A stretch of DNA of 64,000 nt, from the NCBI GenBank assembly GCA_945874665.1, contig CAMCHJ010000001.1, positions 248,001 through 312,000 on the forward strand, read 5' to 3'. Position 1 is the stretch's first letter. Each line of letters opens with the position of its first letter. Below, piece by piece: positions 14,081-43,945 of this stretch. Below the pieces are notes generated by a model that was not told the DNA's origin, made no database searches, and was given only the letters and a program-made list of their open reading frames with translations. Source of the stretch: Chitinophaga pinensis. Lineage in GTDB: Bacteria > Bacteroidota > Bacteroidia > UBA7662. Made by a program: the position numbers and the translations under genes.

Positions 14081-14243
14081 ACCGCCCTTCGACCGGTGGG
14101 TGAGCCTGTCGAACCCCAGGGACCGCCTTCGCCCGGCCCTTCGACTGTTCATTTCGCTGCGCTGCATGAACGCTCAGGGACCGTTGGCAGTTGTTTTGCG
14201 CACATCACCGGTCGCTGAGCGCTGCGCAGCAGCAGTCGAAGCG
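14081..14243. repeat. Family A repeat cluster downstream of obg
   Basis: Contains a variant unit with GTGAGCCTGTCGAACCCC (14081-14126), a long unit at 14136-14183 whose centre is a stem GTTCAT/ATGAAC, and, after a 20-base spacer, a reverse-oriented unit at 14207-14243 (GGTCGCTGAGCGCTGC then GCAGTCGAAGCG). Units share the ends CCTTCGA and CAGGGACC. The cluster starts directly at the obg stop and its last unit faces the unit at 14629 across the GIY-YIG gene. Confidence 0.85.
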
Positions 14244-14659
14244 TGGTGGATTCCATTCTCTCGTTTCGCGCAATTGTTTTCAATTTTTTCAGATAACGAA
14301 CGGCATCTCTCTAAAGGCCTTAAATTCGAATAAAGTTGAGGCCATGACCGGTTATACCTACATATTAAAATGTGTTGATGGCACCTATTATGTGGGGAGC
14401 ACTAATAACTTGACCTTGAGATTAGAACAGCATCATGCAGGGATAGGGGCTAATTATACACGAAAGCGACGGCCATTGGAGTTGATTTATTATGAACAGT
14501 ATGACCGCATTGATGATGCATTTTATAGGGAAAAGCAGTTACAAGGCTGGAGCAGGAAAAAGAAGGAAGCCTTAATGGAAGGGAGATTGGAGGAGTTGCC
14601 AATCTTGGCAGCCCGACGCATACGGTAGGCCCTTCGACTGCTGCGCGCTCAGGGACCGG
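14207..14659 (+). mobile_element. Candidate small mobile unit: GIY-YIG gene bracketed by inverted family A repeats
   Basis: The left unit (14207-14243) and the right unit (14629-14659) are inverted relative to each other, with the GGTC/GACC ends outward, and enclose a single small nuclease gene whose stop codon touches the right unit. No transposase gene or obvious target duplication is seen. The arrangement parallels the GxxExxY unit at 42213-42790. Mobility is an inference. Confidence 0.35.
14344..14628 (+). CDS. Small GIY-YIG domain nuclease-like protein (YhbQ/UvrC-N type)
   Basis: 94 residues, a single GIY-YIG domain: YTYILKCVDGTYYVGSTNN carries the paired YIL/YVG motif, followed by LRLEQHH with the conserved Arg, and YYEQYDRIDDAFYREKQLQGW with the catalytic-type Glu near the end. 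The ATG at 14344 directly precedes the domain; the longer frame from 14191 reads through repeat DNA and is not credible. Stand-alone proteins of this size are related to UvrC N-domains and to YhbQ, with DNA-cleavage activity shown for some. It lies inside family A repeats on both sides, and the right one begins at its stop codon. Confidence 0.85.
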   Translation: MTGYTYILKCVDGTYYVGSTNNLTLRLEQHHAGIGANYTRKRRPLELIYYEQYDRIDDAFYREKQLQGWSRKKKEALMEGRLEELPILAARRIR

Positions 14660-14780
14660 TTGTGGAGTGCTCAGGGACCGCCCTTCGACTATTCATTTCG
14701 CTGCGCTGCATGAACGCTCAGGGACCGGCCCTTCGGCTGCTGCGCGCTCAGGGACCGGTTGTGGAACCCCAGGGACCGGG
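14629..14780. repeat. Family A repeat cluster between the GIY-YIG gene and sprA
   Basis: Four to five tandem units: a short unit 14629-14659, a truncated unit, a long unit with the TTCAT/ATGAA stem at 14680-14728, another short unit, and a final partial unit ending in CAGGGACCGG. The cluster spans from the GIY-YIG stop codon to two bases from the sprA stop codon, so it fills the whole intergenic space. Confidence 0.88.
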
Positions 14781-24885: not shown

Positions 24886-25146
24886 ATTAATGATTTATGA
24901 TTTGCGATGGCTTTAGCGCTACACCGGGCCGGTGGGGGGGGGTCGAAGGTGGTCCCTGAGCGCGAAGCAGTCGAAGGTGGTCCCTGAGCGCGAAGCAGTC
25001 GAAGGGCGGGATTTTTTTACCGCAGAGGACGCAGAGGACGCAGCAGCGGTCCCTGGGGTTCGACGGCCGGTCCCTGAGCGCGCAGCAGTCGAAGGTGGTC
25101 CCTGAGTTTATCGAAGGCGGTCCCTGAGCGCGAGGCAGTCGAAGGG
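24886..25146. repeat. Family A/B repeat cluster between maeB and the GT2 gene
   Basis: Begins with an ATGATTTATGATTTGCGAT motif related to the AATC-rich DNA at 37455-37505, then several reverse-oriented family A units (24929-25010 and 25055-25146: GGTCCCTGAGCGCG ... CAGTCGAAGG), and one family B unit at about 25012-25050 (TTTTTTTACCGCAGAGGACG). The last A unit ends four bases before the GT2 stop codon. No gene is seen in this 290-base stretch. Confidence 0.85.
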
Positions 25147-34385: not shown

Positions 34386-34665
34386 GCATCGGATGCAGCA
34401 GCCGAAGGCGGTCCCGGGTTCAACGGCCGCGGTCCCTGAGCGCGAAGCAGTCGAAGGGCTTTTTTTACCGCGGAGGACGCTGAGGACGCAGCAGAGGTTG
34501 CTGAGTTCATCGAAGCATCGAAGCCGGTCCCGGGTTCGACGGCCGGTCCCTGAGCGTTCATGCAGCGCAGCGGAATGAACAGTCGAAGGGCACCCACCGG
34601 GCGCAGCAGTCGAAGGGCAGCAGCGTTGCTGAGTTCATCGAAGCATCGAAGGGCCTGCTCGTTTG
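34386..34665. repeat. Family A/B repeat cluster upstream of the MltD-like gene
   Basis: Contains reverse-oriented family A units (including a long unit at 34543-34590 with the GTTCAT/ATGAAC stem), a family B unit at about 34460-34495 (TTTTTTTACCGCGGAGGACG), and two copies of the variant GCTGAGTTCATCGAAGCATCG (about 34499 and 34627). From 34666 to 34880 the DNA becomes AT-rich and holds only the promoter of the 34881 gene. Confidence 0.85.
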
Positions 34666-35542: not shown

Positions 35543-36112
35543 ATGTACACTGCTCACCCCACCGCTGTAATTGATGCCGGCTGCCAAATTGGAGCAGGCA
35601 CTAAAATATGGCACTTCAGCCATGTAATGCCGGGCGCCACCATCGGCGACAATTGTAATATTGGTCAAAACGTGTTTATTGCTAGCAATGTGCAGGTAGG
35701 ACAAGCAGTTAAAATTCAAAACAACGTCAGCTTGTACGGCGGCCTGATCATTGAAGATGAGGTATTTTTAGGCCCAAGCTGTGTATTTACCAACGTTATC
35801 AATCCGCGTGCCGGGGTAAACCGCCGCAACGCGTATCAAACCACCCGCATCAAACGGGGCGCCACCATTGGGGCCAATGCCACCTTGGTTTGTGGCAACG
35901 ACATAGGCGAATATGCGTTTGTGGCCGCCGGCGCCGTGGTTACCAAACCGGTATTGCCGTATGCCTTGGTGATGGGCTGTCCTGCCGTGCAAACCGGCTG
36001 GATGAGCGCCCTCGGGCACAAGCTCCACTTTAACGAAAAGGGCGAGGCAACTTGCGACGAGTCAGGACAAACCTACCGTTTAACCAACGGACAAGTCTAC
36101 CCGGTTATATGA
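35543..36112 (+). CDS. wbpD: Left-handed beta-helix N-acetyltransferase, WbpD/WlbB-like
   Basis: 189 residues made of hexapeptide repeats from the start (AVIDAGCQIGAGTKIWHFSHV, IGDNCNIGQNVFIA). NVSLYGGLIIEDEVFLGPSCVF and TNVINPRAGVNRR are typical of WbpD/WlbB, which acetylates the 3-amino group of UDP-2-acetamido-3-amino-glucuronate with acetyl-CoA. The C-terminal KLHFNEKGEATCDESGQTYR is a short tail found in this subfamily. It overlaps the downstream oxidoreductase (ATGA), and with that gene, the aminotransferase at 37512 and the dehydrogenase at 39054 it can form a UDP-diacetamido-glucuronate route. Confidence 0.82.
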   Translation: MYTAHPTAVIDAGCQIGAGTKIWHFSHVMPGATIGDNCNIGQNVFIASNVQVGQAVKIQNNVSLYGGLIIEDEVFLGPSCVFTNVINPRAGVNRRNAYQTTRIKRGATIGANATLVCGNDIGEYAFVAAGAVVTKPVLPYALVMGCPAVQTGWMSALGHKLHFNEKGEATCDESGQTYRLTNGQVYPVI

Positions 36113-37173
36113 GCCTTCCCACTGCGCCCATCCGCTTTGCCATTGTAGGCCTCGGTCACATCGGCAAGCGCCATGCCTACATGGTGCAACAGCACCCAGA
36201 GGCCGAGTTGGTGGCAGTAATCGACCCTATCAACCCGCAATTCGACCCCAGTATCCCGTACTTTGAACGGCTTGACGACTACTTTTTAAACGGACCCACA
36301 GCCGATGTGCTCACCGTAGCCACCCCAAATGGCTTGCACGTGGCTCAAGCCCAACAGGCCATTGCGCAAGGGTTGCATGTGGTGGTAGAGAAGCCCATCG
36401 GACTGCGGAGCAGCGAGGTAGAGCTGCTCCTCCAGCAGGCACAAACGGCCGGCAAACAGCTTTTTCCAGTGATGCAAAACCGCTACTCGCCCCCCAGCCA
36501 GTGGATCAAAGGCGTGATGCAGGCGGGTTTGTTGGGAGAAATTTACCTCGTACAGCTCCATTGCTTTTGGAACCGCGACCAGCGTTATTACCTGCCCAAA
36601 GGCTGGCACGGCAGCGCGCAGCTCGACGGAGGCACGCTCTTTACCCAGTTTTCGCATTTCATCGACACCTTGTATTGGTTGTTGGGGGATGTGGAGGAGG
36701 TTTCTGGACAAATGCGCAGTTTCAACCATGCGGGCTTAACCGATTTTGAAGACAGCGGTCTGCTCCAATTTCAGCTGGCCGGTGGCGCACTCGGCAGTTT
36801 GGCCTTCAGCACCTCGGTGCACGACCAAAACTTTGAATCGAGTATCACCTTGATTGGCGAAAAAGGCACGGTGAAGTTGGGCGGGCAATACATGGACCAA
36901 GTGGTTTACTGCCACATCCAAGGGTATGAAATGCCGGTGTTGCCGCCTACCAATCCTGGCAACGACTACGGCCACTACAAAGGTTCGGCGGCCAATCATC
37001 AATACGTAATCGAAAATGTGGTAGATGTGTTGCGCGGCCGCGCGCCCATTACCGTAAAACCCGAAGAAGCCCTAGCCGTAGTTCGAATTATCGAACAGAT
37101 GTATGCCTCAGCTGCTGCGTCCTCCGCTGCGTCCTCTGCGCCCTCCGCGCCCTCCGCGGTAAAAAAACCCTAA
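36109..37173 (+). CDS. Gfo/Idh/MocA family oxidoreductase, WbpB/WlbA-like
   Basis: 354 residues from the ATG at 36109, which overlaps the stop of the acetyltransferase gene. The Rossmann start is IRFAIVGLGHIGKRHA; VVVEKPIGL carries the catalytic-type EKP motif; FTQFSHFIDTLYWLLG follows. In the Wbp route this enzyme oxidises C3 of UDP-GlcNAc-uronate. The last 20 or so codons (from about 37111) are not protein-family sequence but read through a family B repeat (Ala/Ser/Pro-rich, ending VKKP), so the original stop has been lost or replaced. The longer frame from 36052 is rejected because it overlaps the upstream gene. Confidence 0.8.
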   Translation: MSLPTAPIRFAIVGLGHIGKRHAYMVQQHPEAELVAVIDPINPQFDPSIPYFERLDDYFLNGPTADVLTVATPNGLHVAQAQQAIAQGLHVVVEKPIGLRSSEVELLLQQAQTAGKQLFPVMQNRYSPPSQWIKGVMQAGLLGEIYLVQLHCFWNRDQRYYLPKGWHGSAQLDGGTLFTQFSHFIDTLYWLLGDVEEVSGQMRSFNHAGLTDFEDSGLLQFQLAGGALGSLAFSTSVHDQNFESSITLIGEKGTVKLGGQYMDQVVYCHIQGYEMPVLPPTNPGNDYGHYKGSAANHQYVIENVVDVLRGRAPITVKPEEALAVVRIIEQMYASAAASSAASSAPSAPSAVKKP

Positions 37174-37505
37174 CTCCCGCCCCTTCGCTAAAGCGTCCTC
37201 CGCGTTCTCTGCGGTAAAAAAAACCTAACTCCCGCCCCTTCGACTGCTTCGCGCTCAGGGACCGCCTTCGATGCTTCGCCCGGTGGGTGAGCCCCGTCGA
37301 ACCCGGGACCGGCCGTGGGTGCTTCGATAAACTCAGCAACCGCTGCTTCGCCCGGCCCTTCGACTGTTCATTCCGCTGCGCTGCATGAACGCTCAGGGAC
37401 CGGCCATGGGTGCTTCGATGAACTCAGGGACCACCTTCGATGCTTCGATAATCGCCAATCGAAATCGCCAATCAAAATCATAAATCCAACTCAGAAATCA
37501 GAAAT
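37111..37505. repeat. Family A/B repeat cluster at the end of the Gfo/Idh gene
   Basis: Two family B units (37111-37168, which codes for the protein tail, and 37192-37224) are followed by several family A units, including a long one at 37355-37403 with the GTTCAT/ATGAAC stem and variants with CTTCGATAAACTCAGCAAC and CTTCGATGAACTCAGGGAC. The end (37455-37505) is a simple AATC-rich stretch (repeats of the AAATCAT type) before the convergent aminotransferase gene. No gene is seen from 37174 to 37511. Confidence 0.86.
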
Positions 37506-38710: not shown

Positions 38711-39029
38711 GCCCTTCGATGAACTCAGGGACCGCCTTCGATGAACTCAGGGAACACCTTCGACTGCTTCGCGCTCAGGGACCGCCTTCGATGAACTCAG
38801 GGACCGCCGCTGCGTTCTCCGCGTCCTCCGCGGTAAAAAACCGCCCCGCCCTTCGGCTGCTGCGCGCTCAGGGACCGCCTTCGACTGTTCATTCCGCTGC
38901 GCTGCATGAACGCTCAGGGACCGGTCTGGCGATGCTTCGATGAACTCAGGGACCGCCGCTGCGTTCTCCGCGTCCTCCGCGGTAAAAAACCCCTCCCGCG
39001 TTCTCCCCGTCCTCCGCGGTAAAAAAACA
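38711..39029. repeat. Family A/B repeat cluster between two divergent sugar-nucleotide genes
   Basis: Tandem family A units (short forms with CTTCGATGAACTCAGGGACC, a CTGCTTCGCGCTCAGGGACC form, and a long stem form at about 38877-38923) are interleaved with three family B units at about 38806-38840, 38956-38990 and 38996-39029 (each ending CCTCCGCGGTAAAAAA). A frame through this DNA from 38940 joins the dehydrogenase gene but is repeat-encoded. The stretch 38648-38710 shows only AT-rich AAATC-type DNA. Confidence 0.87.
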
Positions 39030-40328: not shown

Positions 40329-40451
40329 CCCTTCGACTGTTCATTTCGCTGCGCTGCATGAACGCTCAGGGACCGGCTTTGCCTGTAGCGTTCTCCGCGC
40401 ACTCTGCGGTAAAAAAACCTCCCGCGTTCTCCCCGTCCTCCGCGGTAAAAA
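40329..40451. repeat. Family A/B repeats after the dehydrogenase gene
   Basis: One long family A unit (40329-40376, with the TTCAT/ATGAA stem) followed by two family B units (about 40387-40417 and 40421-40451). The rest of the gap to 40623 holds no recognisable gene; a short ACTTTG-containing motif lies just before the galE start. Confidence 0.85.
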
Positions 40452-41684: not shown

Positions 41685-42212
41685 ATGCTTGAAACCTTAA
41701 TCACTTCCAAAACCCGCATCAAGCTCCTGCTGAAATTTTTCAGCAATCAGGGCAACCAAGCCTATTTGCGGGCTTTGGCCGACGAGTTTGGTGAAAGCAC
41801 CAACGCCGTGCGGGTAGAGCTCAACCGCTTGTCGGATGCCGGACTCTTGGAGTCGGAGCCAGCGGGCAACACCATCCTGTACAAAGCCAATAAAATGCAC
41901 CCTATTTATGGGGAAATCCGCAGTTTGGTATCGAAATATTTAGGGTTTGATCAAATTATTGAAACCGTTTTAGAGCGTTTAGGCGATCTAGAACAGGCCG
42001 TGGTGGTAGGCGATTATGCCAAAGGCCAAGACAGCGGCGTGATTGACCTCAGGCTCATCGGACACATAGACCTCCAGTATTTAAGTCAGCTCATCCTCAA
42101 AGCCGAAGGGCTCATCAACCGCAAAATCCGGTACAGTATTCAGCCATCCGATGTTTCGGGTTTGGGCTATGACTTTGAGGGGGAGGCGCATATTGTGCTG
42201 TGGACGAAGTAA
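41685..42212 (+). CDS. Winged-helix regulator with a degenerate nucleotidyltransferase-like domain
   Basis: 175 residues. An ArsR/MarR-like winged helix covers about 1-75 (LITSKTRIKLLLKFF, FGESTNAVRVELNRLSDAGLL). The second half has VVVGDYAKGQDSGVIDLRLIG, which resembles the MNT-type nucleotidyltransferase GSxAxGxxxxxSDIDL but with the glycine/serine loop and the DxD aspartates largely replaced, so it is probably catalytically dead and ligand-binding. Such proteins recur inside surface-polysaccharide loci of Bacteroidota and may control them. It is coupled to galE and a family B unit begins right after its stop codon. Confidence 0.78.
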   Translation: MLETLITSKTRIKLLLKFFSNQGNQAYLRALADEFGESTNAVRVELNRLSDAGLLESEPAGNTILYKANKMHPIYGEIRSLVSKYLGFDQIIETVLERLGDLEQAVVVGDYAKGQDSGVIDLRLIGHIDLQYLSQLILKAEGLINRKIRYSIQPSDVSGLGYDFEGEAHIVLWTK

Positions 42213-42245
42213 TTTTGCACCGCGGAGGACGCAGATGGCGCTGAG
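42213..42245. repeat. Family B repeat, left inverted end of the GxxExxY unit
   Basis: Starts with TTTTGCACCGCGGAGGACG immediately after the winged-helix stop codon and ends GGCGCTGAG. Its reverse complement lines up with the unit at 42756-42790 over about 33 positions with only a few mismatches. Confidence 0.8.
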
Positions 42246-42254
42246 CCTCAGCTT

Positions 42255-42653
42255 TCAGGCAGCACGATCAAAGTTATTAACCAAGCGCTGAAGACCAGCT
42301 AGCAGCTTTACCTCATGGAAATTGATCAGATATCCAAGTTGTAAATCTGTTAAACGCAGATAAGTAAGTAGTTGAGATTGCATTTTGGGATGAATTTCGC
42401 TTACGGCTTTCAGCTCAATGATTACCGCATCATCAACCAAAAGATCAACCCGGAGGTCATTGGCAATGATTTCGTCTTTATACACAACAGGAACCAATAC
42501 TTGTGTTTTAACGATGTGTTTTCGAGACTTCAGCTCAATCTCCATGGCCTTTTGATAAATGCTTTCGAGCAACCCAGGACCAAGTGTTTTATGCACCTCA
42601 ATAGCAGCGCCTACCACACTAAAGCCTATTTGATTTAGATCTTTGGAATTCAT
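42255..42653 (-). CDS. GxxExxY family protein (PD-(D/E)XK nuclease-like)
   Basis: 132 residues. The name-giving motif is GPGLLESIYQKAM (GxxExxY), followed by a PD-(D/E)XK-like core: LRVDLLVDDAVIIELKAV, where the Asp and the E-x-K pair are in nuclease-like positions, then QLLTYLRLTDLQLGYLINF. The family is widespread and often multicopy in environmental genomes; its role is unknown. The gene is flanked by an inverted pair of family B repeats. Confidence 0.88.
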   Translation of the reverse strand: MNSKDLNQIGFSVVGAAIEVHKTLGPGLLESIYQKAMEIELKSRKHIVKTQVLVPVVYKDEIIANDLRVDLLVDDAVIIELKAVSEIHPKMQSQLLTYLRLTDLQLGYLINFHEVKLLAGLQRLVNNFDRAA

Positions 42654-42755
42654 GAGCCTTCAATTTTTTGAAAAGTTAGCAGGCCCAAAACCCAAAAGCA
42701 AATGTTTACCCTATTTTTGAAAACACTTGCGCAGTTTGCGATAATTGACCCCCAA

Positions 42756-42790
42756 CTCAGCGCCCTCCGCGCCCTCCGCGGTAAAAAAAA
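42756..42790. repeat. Family B repeat, right inverted end of the GxxExxY unit
   Basis: Reads CTCAGCGCCCTCCGCGCCC and ends CCTCCGCGGTAAAAAAAA. It is the inverted partner of the unit at 42213-42245 and ends 20 bases before the rfbB -7 box. Confidence 0.82.
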
Positions 42791-42826: not shown

Positions 42827-43885
42827 ATGACCTTCGAAAGAAACATCCTACTTACCGGCGGCGCTGGTTTCATCGGCTGTCACGCTGTTAAGCATTTTGT
42901 AACAGCTTACCCAGATTACAGGATTGTTGTTTTAGACAAACTGACTTATGCTGGCAATCTTGACAACCTCAAGGAAGTTGCGGATAAGCCTAATTTTGTG
43001 TTTGTTGAAGGCGATATTTGCGATGCCAAGCTCATTGGCGACCTGTTTGCGAAGTATGAGATTAACGGGGTGATGCACCTCGCCGCCGAAAGCCACGTAG
43101 ATCGGAGCATCGAAAACCCCATGGAATTCGTGATGACCAACGTTGTAGGTACGGTGAACTTGCTTAACGCCGCCGTAAAGGCCTGGGGGGAACATCCGAA
43201 TGGCCCGGTGGCTGCGGTGGCTTCGGTGGCTGAGCCTGTCGAAGCCCCAGAAGCCCGAAAATACCTCTTCTACCACATTAGTACCGATGAGGTATACGGT
43301 AGTTTGGGAAAAGAAGGCTTGTTTAGAGAAGACACCCCCTACGACCCACGTTCGCCTTACTCGGCTTCGAAGGCCAGCAGCGACCACTTTGTAAGGGCTT
43401 ACCACGAAACTTACGGACTGCCTGTTGTGATCAGCAATTGCTCTAACAACTACGGCCCCAATCAATACCCCGAAAAGCTCATTCCGGTGGTGATAAACAG
43501 CATCCTCCACCGCAAACCCATACCGGTGTACGGCAAAGGCGAAAACATACGCGATTGGCTGTTTGTGGGCGACCATGTAAGCGCCATGGATGCCATTTGG
43601 CACCGCGGCGCCAGCGGCCGCACCTACAATGTAGGCGGCAACAACGAATGGCAGAACATTCAGTTGGTTAAAAAGCTTTGCCAAATCATGGATGATAAAC
43701 TCGGCCGTGCCACTGGCGAATCCGAAGGCCTCATCACCTACGTAACCGACCGCAAAGGCCACGACCTCCGCTATGCCATCGATGCTTCACGCCTCCGCGA
43801 CGAGCTCAACTGGGAACCCAAGCAAAAATTCGACGAATACCTCAGCACCACTGTAGATTATTACCTAGCTTTATTCAAGAGCTAA
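42827..43885 (+). CDS. rfbB: dTDP-glucose 4,6-dehydratase with a repeat-derived insertion
   Basis: 352 residues. ILLTGGAGFIGCHAVKHF binds NAD; HISTDEVYGSLG, the YSASKASSDHFVRAY catalytic YxxxK segment, and NCSNNYGPNQYPEKLIP are diagnostic of RmlB. It makes dTDP-4-keto-6-deoxyglucose for 6-deoxyhexoses. Between NLLNAAVKAWGEHPNGP and KYLFYHISTDEVYG there is an in-frame insertion of about 15-18 residues (VAAVASVAEPVEAPEA), encoded by three tandem 9-mers and a family A-like fragment (43206-43250). rmlA, rmlC and rmlD are not in the window. Confidence 0.93.
   Translation: MTFERNILLTGGAGFIGCHAVKHFVTAYPDYRIVVLDKLTYAGNLDNLKEVADKPNFVFVEGDICDAKLIGDLFAKYEINGVMHLAAESHVDRSIENPMEFVMTNVVGTVNLLNAAVKAWGEHPNGPVAAVASVAEPVEAPEARKYLFYHISTDEVYGSLGKEGLFREDTPYDPRSPYSASKASSDHFVRAYHETYGLPVVISNCSNNYGPNQYPEKLIPVVINSILHRKPIPVYGKGENIRDWLFVGDHVSAMDAIWHRGASGRTYNVGGNNEWQNIQLVKKLCQIMDDKLGRATGESEGLITYVTDRKGHDLRYAIDASRLRDELNWEPKQKFDEYLSTTVDYYLALFKS
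43206..43250 (+). repeat. Tandem 9-mer and family A fragment inside rfbB
   Basis: CGGTGGCT occurs three times at 9-base spacing (43206, 43215, 43224), and the last copy runs into GGTGGCTGAGCCTGTCGAAG, which matches the family A variant at 14095-14122 apart from a few bases. The length keeps the reading frame. Confidence 0.8.
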
Positions 43886-43910
43886 GCGAATTTAAAATAG
43901 CCATAAACCC

Positions 43911-43945
43911 ATCCGCGTCCTCCGCGTCCTCCGCGGTAAAATAAA
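43911..43945. repeat. Family B repeat before the Wza-like gene
   Basis: Two GCGTCCTCC units and a CCTCCGCGGTAAAATAAAA end; it finishes six bases before the start codon at 43951. Confidence 0.8.

Follow-up and report, generated by a model that had tools for sequence, protein, structure and literature searches.

A GxxExxY gene between matched inverted arms as a candidate minimal mobile element of Bacteroidia

Closest described systems

REPIN-RAYT systems are the closest described elements in lifestyle (PMC8049555, PMC8266576), and the REP side of the comparison made here is described in the same papers (PMC8266576, PMC8049555). The unit that we analyzed resembles REP/RAYT systems in having a single nuclease-type gene, inverted repeat copies around this gene, scattered solo copies and covariation of repeat and enzyme, and it is likewise mostly intergenic and chromosomal. 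However, RAYTs are HuH (Y1) enzymes whose substrates are hairpin-forming REP palindromes bearing a GTAG-type motif, whereas the gene enclosed here encodes a predicted PD-(D/E)XK nuclease (PDDEXK_3 is its only Pfam match). Most of the GxxExxY arms tested were tandem and non-palindromic, in contrast to the REP hairpin (cf. PMC8266576). The unit also shares terminal inverted arrays, discrete insertion and paralogs in unrelated flanks with IS/TIR transposons, but it lacks a DDE, HuH, serine or tyrosine recombinase, encodes just a nuclease of 125-150 aa, and shows no clear target-site duplication. It is as short and inverted-ended as a MITE and has solo and empty derivatives, but unlike a MITE it has coding capacity, namely its own conserved gene under purifying selection. 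Cas4, lambda exonuclease and LHK-Exo have a similar fold and share the motifs (a helical E, then D, ExK and QxxxY); the GxxExxY protein, on the other hand, is free-standing, smaller, arm-flanked and part of a mobile unit that holds no CRISPR or recombinase partner. Rpn (YhgA-like) proteins have a PD-(D/E)XK fold. They too are a nuclease family tied to DNA mobilization (PMC5350276), but belong to a different Pfam family, PF04754.

GxxExxY proteins have so far been unknowns in databases. We found no published account of the unit in the open-access literature searched, where GxxExxY is named only in passing. TIGR04256 and the repeat strings searched were not found mentioned in that literature; PF13366 does occur there. 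The unit could represent a new kind of minimal mobile element.

The unit in the window and its protein

The window is the whole stretch of DNA analyzed, 64,000 nt long (C1:248001-312000 of assembly G000, which has 2.29 Mb in 35 contigs). The unit, composed of an arm, the GxxExxY gene and a second arm, occupies 42213..42788 (about 576 bp). It is inserted between two co-directional genes, as judged from an empty site in a related genus and from a congener with the unit at the same place. The upstream neighbor (41685..42212, + strand) encodes an HTH protein, PaaX/GntR-like, and was used in the empty-site search; the downstream one (42827..43885, + strand) encodes an rfbB-like NAD-dependent sugar-nucleotide epimerase/dehydratase. 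The left arm (42213..42245, + strand; TTTTGCACCGCGGAGGACGCAGATGGCGCTGAG) follows immediately on the upstream gene's stop codon and consists of a T-run, ACC and the tandem CRCNRAK-type units CGCGGAG, CGCAGAT and CGCTGAG. The right arm (42756..42788, - strand; CTCAGCGCCCTCCGCGCCCTCCGCGGTAAAAAA) is an inverted copy of the left one. An earlier note on this DNA had described near-perfect inverted repeats of about 33 bases; the inversion and the length were borne out (33 nt each, with 510 nt between them), while at 85% complementarity the wording was slightly generous. The same note was right that both arms have an identical inner end, CTCAGCGCC, and that they enclose a single PD-(D/E)XK-like gene, which is one ORF of 132 aa at 42255..42653 (- strand) matching both PF13366 and TIGR04256. 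A Pfam search detected no recombinase or transposase domain inside the unit, and GxxExxY was its sole ORF with a family match. The assembly has one GxxExxY gene, and among its 17 matches to the family-B repeat pattern no two others besides those flanking this gene form an inward-facing pair with a single gene in between.

The window protein matched TIGR04256 (GxxExxY) with an E-value of 1.6e-39 and 134.9 bits (cut-off 35) and PF13366 (PDDEXK_3) with an E-value of 3e-39 and 134.4 bits (cut-off 22). When 33 sequences were compared, E30, D70 and K82 were invariant and E80, Q94 and Y98 were conserved in at least 90%; all six residues are present in the window protein. This set of E, D, ExK and QxxxY is characteristic of the RecB/lambda-exonuclease/Cas4 group. 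The AlphaFold model of GxxExxY had a pLDDT of 93, and the nearest solved folds were 3syy (LHK-Exo), 4ic1 (SSO0001, a Cas4 protein) and 6m9k (lambda exonuclease). These matches were moderate, with a probability of up to 1.00 but an E-value of 5e-3 and TM scores of 0.45-0.56; Cas4 sequence models matched GxxExxY weakly, and the sequence search returned no solved homolog. GxxExxY is predicted from motifs and model to be a RecB/lambda-exonuclease/Cas4-like PD-(D/E)XK nuclease with an intact active site. Between the window gene and its ortholog in the congener G001 we obtained a dS of 1.19, a dN of 0.03 and an omega of 0.025. Judging from the coding sequence, GxxExxY is an intact protein under strong purifying selection.

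Inverted arms around GxxExxY genes and their match to the protein

GxxExxY genes were gathered from 40 relatives and other Bacteroidia, many of them represented by MAGs, and we aligned the left flank of each gene to its reverse-complemented right flank, taking a score of at least 14 as an inverted match. A first sample gave an inverted pair at 46/64 GxxExxY genes as compared to 5/113 further ORFs located at these loci, and at 3.5% of mispaired flanks. In a larger sample the pair was found at 84 of the 112 GxxExxY genes and at 13 of the 209 control ORFs (Fisher p about 3e-38). Over both samples the rates were 72-75% for GxxExxY genes and 4-6% for controls, at loci taken mostly from high-scoring matches, which may favor canonical members. 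Eleven of the 13 control ORFs with a pair came from orthologous loci within a single genus, where a different palindromic repeat occurs. Another of the 13, L038:5710-6063, was recognized by eye from its sequence as a RAYT-like Y1 gene with its own inverted repeats and is a natural positive control for the method. The window region is rich in family-B copies, which would favor a chance pairing of abundant dispersed repeats; this explanation is refuted by the difference between GxxExxY genes and controls, seen across many genomes whose repeats differ, and its probability is negligible. Inverted units are not as common around random genes (84/112 versus 13/209), which was the comparison on which the earlier note had staked its claim that GxxExxY and inverted family-B repeats form one unit. 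This claim is supported, as the enrichment, the empty sites, the copy number and the protein-repeat comparison agree.

No arm pair was detected at the threshold at 28 of the 112 GxxExxY genes. Some of these have diverged arms (L168, for example) and some have arms in direct order; a subset perhaps represents subfamilies that lack arms. The subfamily with a long N-terminus was considered as the armless group and rejected, as 11 of its 12 members had arms. At L013, L098, L102, L053 and L123, arm clusters were seen as long direct repeats on both sides of the gene, several of the clusters with head-to-head arms.

An arm is made up of two to four imperfect units of 7-10 bp in tandem with the core CRCNRAK, with RCC or ACC and a T-run on the outer side. 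Where a CRCNRA core was found, the outer end, preceded by a T-rich stretch, reads [ACG]CC, AAC, CTC or the like, and the outer letters are usually common to both ends of one unit. The repeat varies by gene and includes CGCGGAGG, CGCAAAG, CACAGAG, CACAGAT, CACGGAG, ACGAAT, ACAGGATT and others, so that arm sequence differs from unit to unit while the two arms of a unit match each other. Eight arms folded as ssDNA gave z-scores of -1.6 to +0.6, most of them folding no better than shuffles and having no stable structure; an Rfam search for known RNA elements gave no match near threshold.

We found that arm similarity rises with protein similarity at loci of different host families (Spearman -0.34 against distance; 0/2000 permutations in a Mantel test, which only partly removes shared ancestry). 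Arm type hence tracks protein type; a comparison of GxxExxY proteins with the repeats had been proposed by the earlier note. Proteins of the CAYKVH...LLESTYE type, for example, have ACCACAGATTACACAGAT-like arms in families f4, f10, f22, f47 and f56. In the paralogs L032 and L080, whose genes are 92% identical, both arms differ together (CACAAAG versus CGCAAAG). Concerted change of both arms over 17 pairs is only suggestive (p 0.005), own arms having been picked by best own alignment. The many enzyme variants paired with many arm variants are a natural data set for a recognition code.

Insertion sites, solo arms and the putative mobilizing enzyme

The units had a median length of 512 bp, and 59/84 lay between two genes that were both co-directional with GxxExxY. 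Only 7/84 lay between two opposite genes, and the window unit is one of these seven. The distance from the outer arm to the stop codon of the neighbor had a median of 9.5 bp, and in some units the arm's own TTTAA provides this stop. Since 59 of the 84 units are co-directional with both neighbors, GxxExxY is probably expressed by read-through. The bias itself could result from either selection or directed insertion. GxxExxY was carried by 60% of the sampled Bacteroidia genomes, and units were found in other phyla as well, in Gemmatimonadota and Alphaproteobacteria and, weakly, in Spirochaetota (Treponema). We rejected phage or plasmid cargo as an explanation: there were 0 matches in 50,697 phage records, one of 2.9 million viral contigs matched, and 5-8 plasmid records, mostly large replicons, had a GxxExxY match.

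The congener G001 has the window unit at the same place. In G005, which belongs to the same family and another genus, the orthologs of the window neighbors are 5 bp apart (TAA TGCAT ATG), and in G003 they are about 50 bp apart without the unit. In the majority of about 25 species of genus g25, a junction between two aldehyde-dehydrogenase-family genes is short and carries no unit. At this junction G207 has a unit with CGCAAAG/CGCTAAG arms, G380 and G362 have a different unit with GCCACAGATTCACAGAT arms, G282 has a third unit type and G411 has a lone arm. The three units are considered separate arrivals because their proteins are only 27-43% identical between types. Palindromic CCCTGTCAGGGTTTCAAACCCTGACAGGG-type repeats also occur at the g25 junction in L151, L153, L155-L157, L163, L165 and L172. 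In Bacteroides finegoldii a unit separates radA from the following gene; the corresponding junction of Parabacteroides distasonis measures 13 bp. Sphingomonas parapaucimobilis (L211, NZ_CP155749.1) has a unit between fabD and fabG, inside the fatty-acid operon, in which the ORF takes its C-terminus from the right arm; the corresponding spacing in S. paeninsulae is about 30 bp. Within the genome G027, three pairs of paralogous units are alike only from arm to arm and have unrelated flanks on both sides: L079/L083 (483 bp at 90%), L080/L032 (about 510 bp at 85%) and L008/L091 (about 446 bp at 83%). Taken together, the empty sites, the separate arrivals at one junction and the paralogs alike only from arm to arm show, by comparison, that the arm-gene-arm unit moves as a discrete piece between genes. 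The empty sites and multiple copies that the earlier note had proposed to look for were thus found (the 5-bp site in G005, the G027 paralogs and the G207 arm copies described below), while for the target duplication it also named we saw no clear or convincing case at the units compared, the flanks of which are T/A-rich.

Clean empty sites, a nuclease-only unit and the repeated use of one g25 junction would also be consistent with a homing-type endonuclease that cuts a conserved empty-site target, after which repair copies the unit in and the arms are incidental or protective. PD-(D/E)XK homing enzymes exist, for example I-SspI. However, target sites vary widely between units, the paralogs in unrelated flanks of one genome do not share a single conserved cleavage site, and homing needs neither matched arms nor scattered solo arms, which makes this explanation improbable. 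Alternatively, GxxExxY could be a host-selected gene for a repair, defense or toxin-like nuclease at repeat-rich spots, the arms being regulatory or recombination-prone repeats. Strong purifying selection and the co-directional placement in operons fit such a gene, and other repeat families gather at such junctions too. The empty sites, however, are junctions of 5-43 bp entirely without arms, and because they carry none, the arms come with the gene; moreover, homology between paralogs stops at the arms, and arms match within a unit and not by locus. We consider a host-selected gene very improbable.

Arms also occur without a gene. The arm ACCGCAAAGGGCGCTAAG of G207, allowing up to two mismatches, had 23 matches in that genome over about 20 contigs. 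In 35 congeners the same arm had 0-9 matches per genome, with none at all in 23 of them, and a reversed control pattern reached a maximum of 1 per genome. The solo arms of G207 are about 42 bp long with a sharp start and unrelated surroundings. When we compared empty sites for a solo arm at G207:C36, the intergenic space was filled by unrelated repeats that turn over in each species. Of family B, the 17 matches in G000 compare with five in G001, on the contig of its GxxExxY gene, and few in other relatives. Across 395 Bacteroidia genomes, matches to a generic arm pattern averaged 8.6 in genomes with GxxExxY and 1.7 in those without. At least 10 arm sites were present in 58/238 genomes with the gene versus 6/157 without (p 8e-9), and a control pattern showed no difference.

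The highest density of generic arm matches, 185 in a 2.4-Mb genome, was seen in G346, which has two GxxExxY matches. G243, G344, G215, G047, G080 and G214 have 13-55 arm-pattern matches and no GxxExxY match; a lost gene, a divergent gene or another driver are conceivable there. A further repeat, AAGTTTAAAGTTCAAAGTTTGCTGTGTG, lies beside many solo arms of G207 (L176-L195). L177 (G207:C36) has a geneless MITE-like inverted pair, ACCACATAAGGCACAAAAGG...CCTTATGTGGT, at about 720-890 of the 1702-bp query, with several copies in G207.

These solo arms bear on the possibility that the arms are MITE-like ends for another transposase acting in trans, GxxExxY being a passenger or helper. Inverted ends, short length and the lack of a recombinase in the unit are in agreement with it, as are solo arms, hairpin-like empty pairs and ten genomes with at least 5 arm matches but no GxxExxY match. 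On the other hand, the enclosed gene is repeatedly GxxExxY and evolves at an omega of 0.025, and solo arms match the resident GxxExxY unit. In addition, arm type tracks GxxExxY sequence across host families, and a transposase acting in trans would need to diversify in step. A transposase in trans is therefore an unlikely explanation.

The 576-bp segment likely constitutes a minimal mobile element, a selfish nuclease-repeat pair of GxxExxY (125-150 aa) and its matched inverted arms, with the nuclease as the putative mobilizing enzyme. GxxExxY is preferred in this role because of the protein-arm covariation and the gene-dependent dispersal of arms; the main doubt arises because no strand-transfer domain is present. 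We know of no lambda-exonuclease/Cas4-type nuclease that moves DNA alone. The nuclease would recognize the tandem units of its cognate arms and cut there; the unit, or a bare arm, would then be inserted or copied into T/A-rich intergenic sites by host repair or recombination. More tentatively, it is quite possible that the units are a new class of autonomous element, in which one Cas4/lambda-exonuclease-like nuclease of 125-150 aa, without a strand-transfer enzyme, reads an end code of tandem heptamers that co-evolves with it and propagates itself as well as bare ends via host repair; such a class would explain why intergenic repeats of the ACCGCAGAG/CACAGAT type are so common in environmental bacteria. 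Should the unit move by means of its own nuclease, it would rank among the smallest of autonomous mobile elements and would bring in a nuclease fold that is not known to act alone in such a role, and a widespread class of intergenic repeats would be explained.

Several solo family-B arms lie in the window. Pattern matches were found at 25013..25046 and 34461..34494 on the + strand and at 37188..37215 on the - strand. The remaining solo arms are all on the - strand: an extended tandem at 37112..37161, two arms adjoining family-A repeats at 38807..38840 and 38956..38989, a partial arm at 39002..39019, two arms in tandem at 40388..40450 and one arm downstream of rfbB at 43910..43943. The extended tandem overlaps the 3' end of ORF 36052-37173 and may supply the end of its reading frame. 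Within G000:C1:262-361 kb, which covers the window and beyond, the 13 family-A and 17 family-B matches of the genome are clustered near the GIY-YIG and GxxExxY genes, in contrast to G207, where solo arms are genome-wide. The GIY-YIG gene (14191-14628; PF01541, E-value 1.7e-18) lies between two family-A copies at 14127-14183 and 14671-14727, which are in direct orientation, the repeat itself being partly palindromic. The GIY-YIG gene and the family-A repeats are possibly a parallel nuclease-repeat unit.
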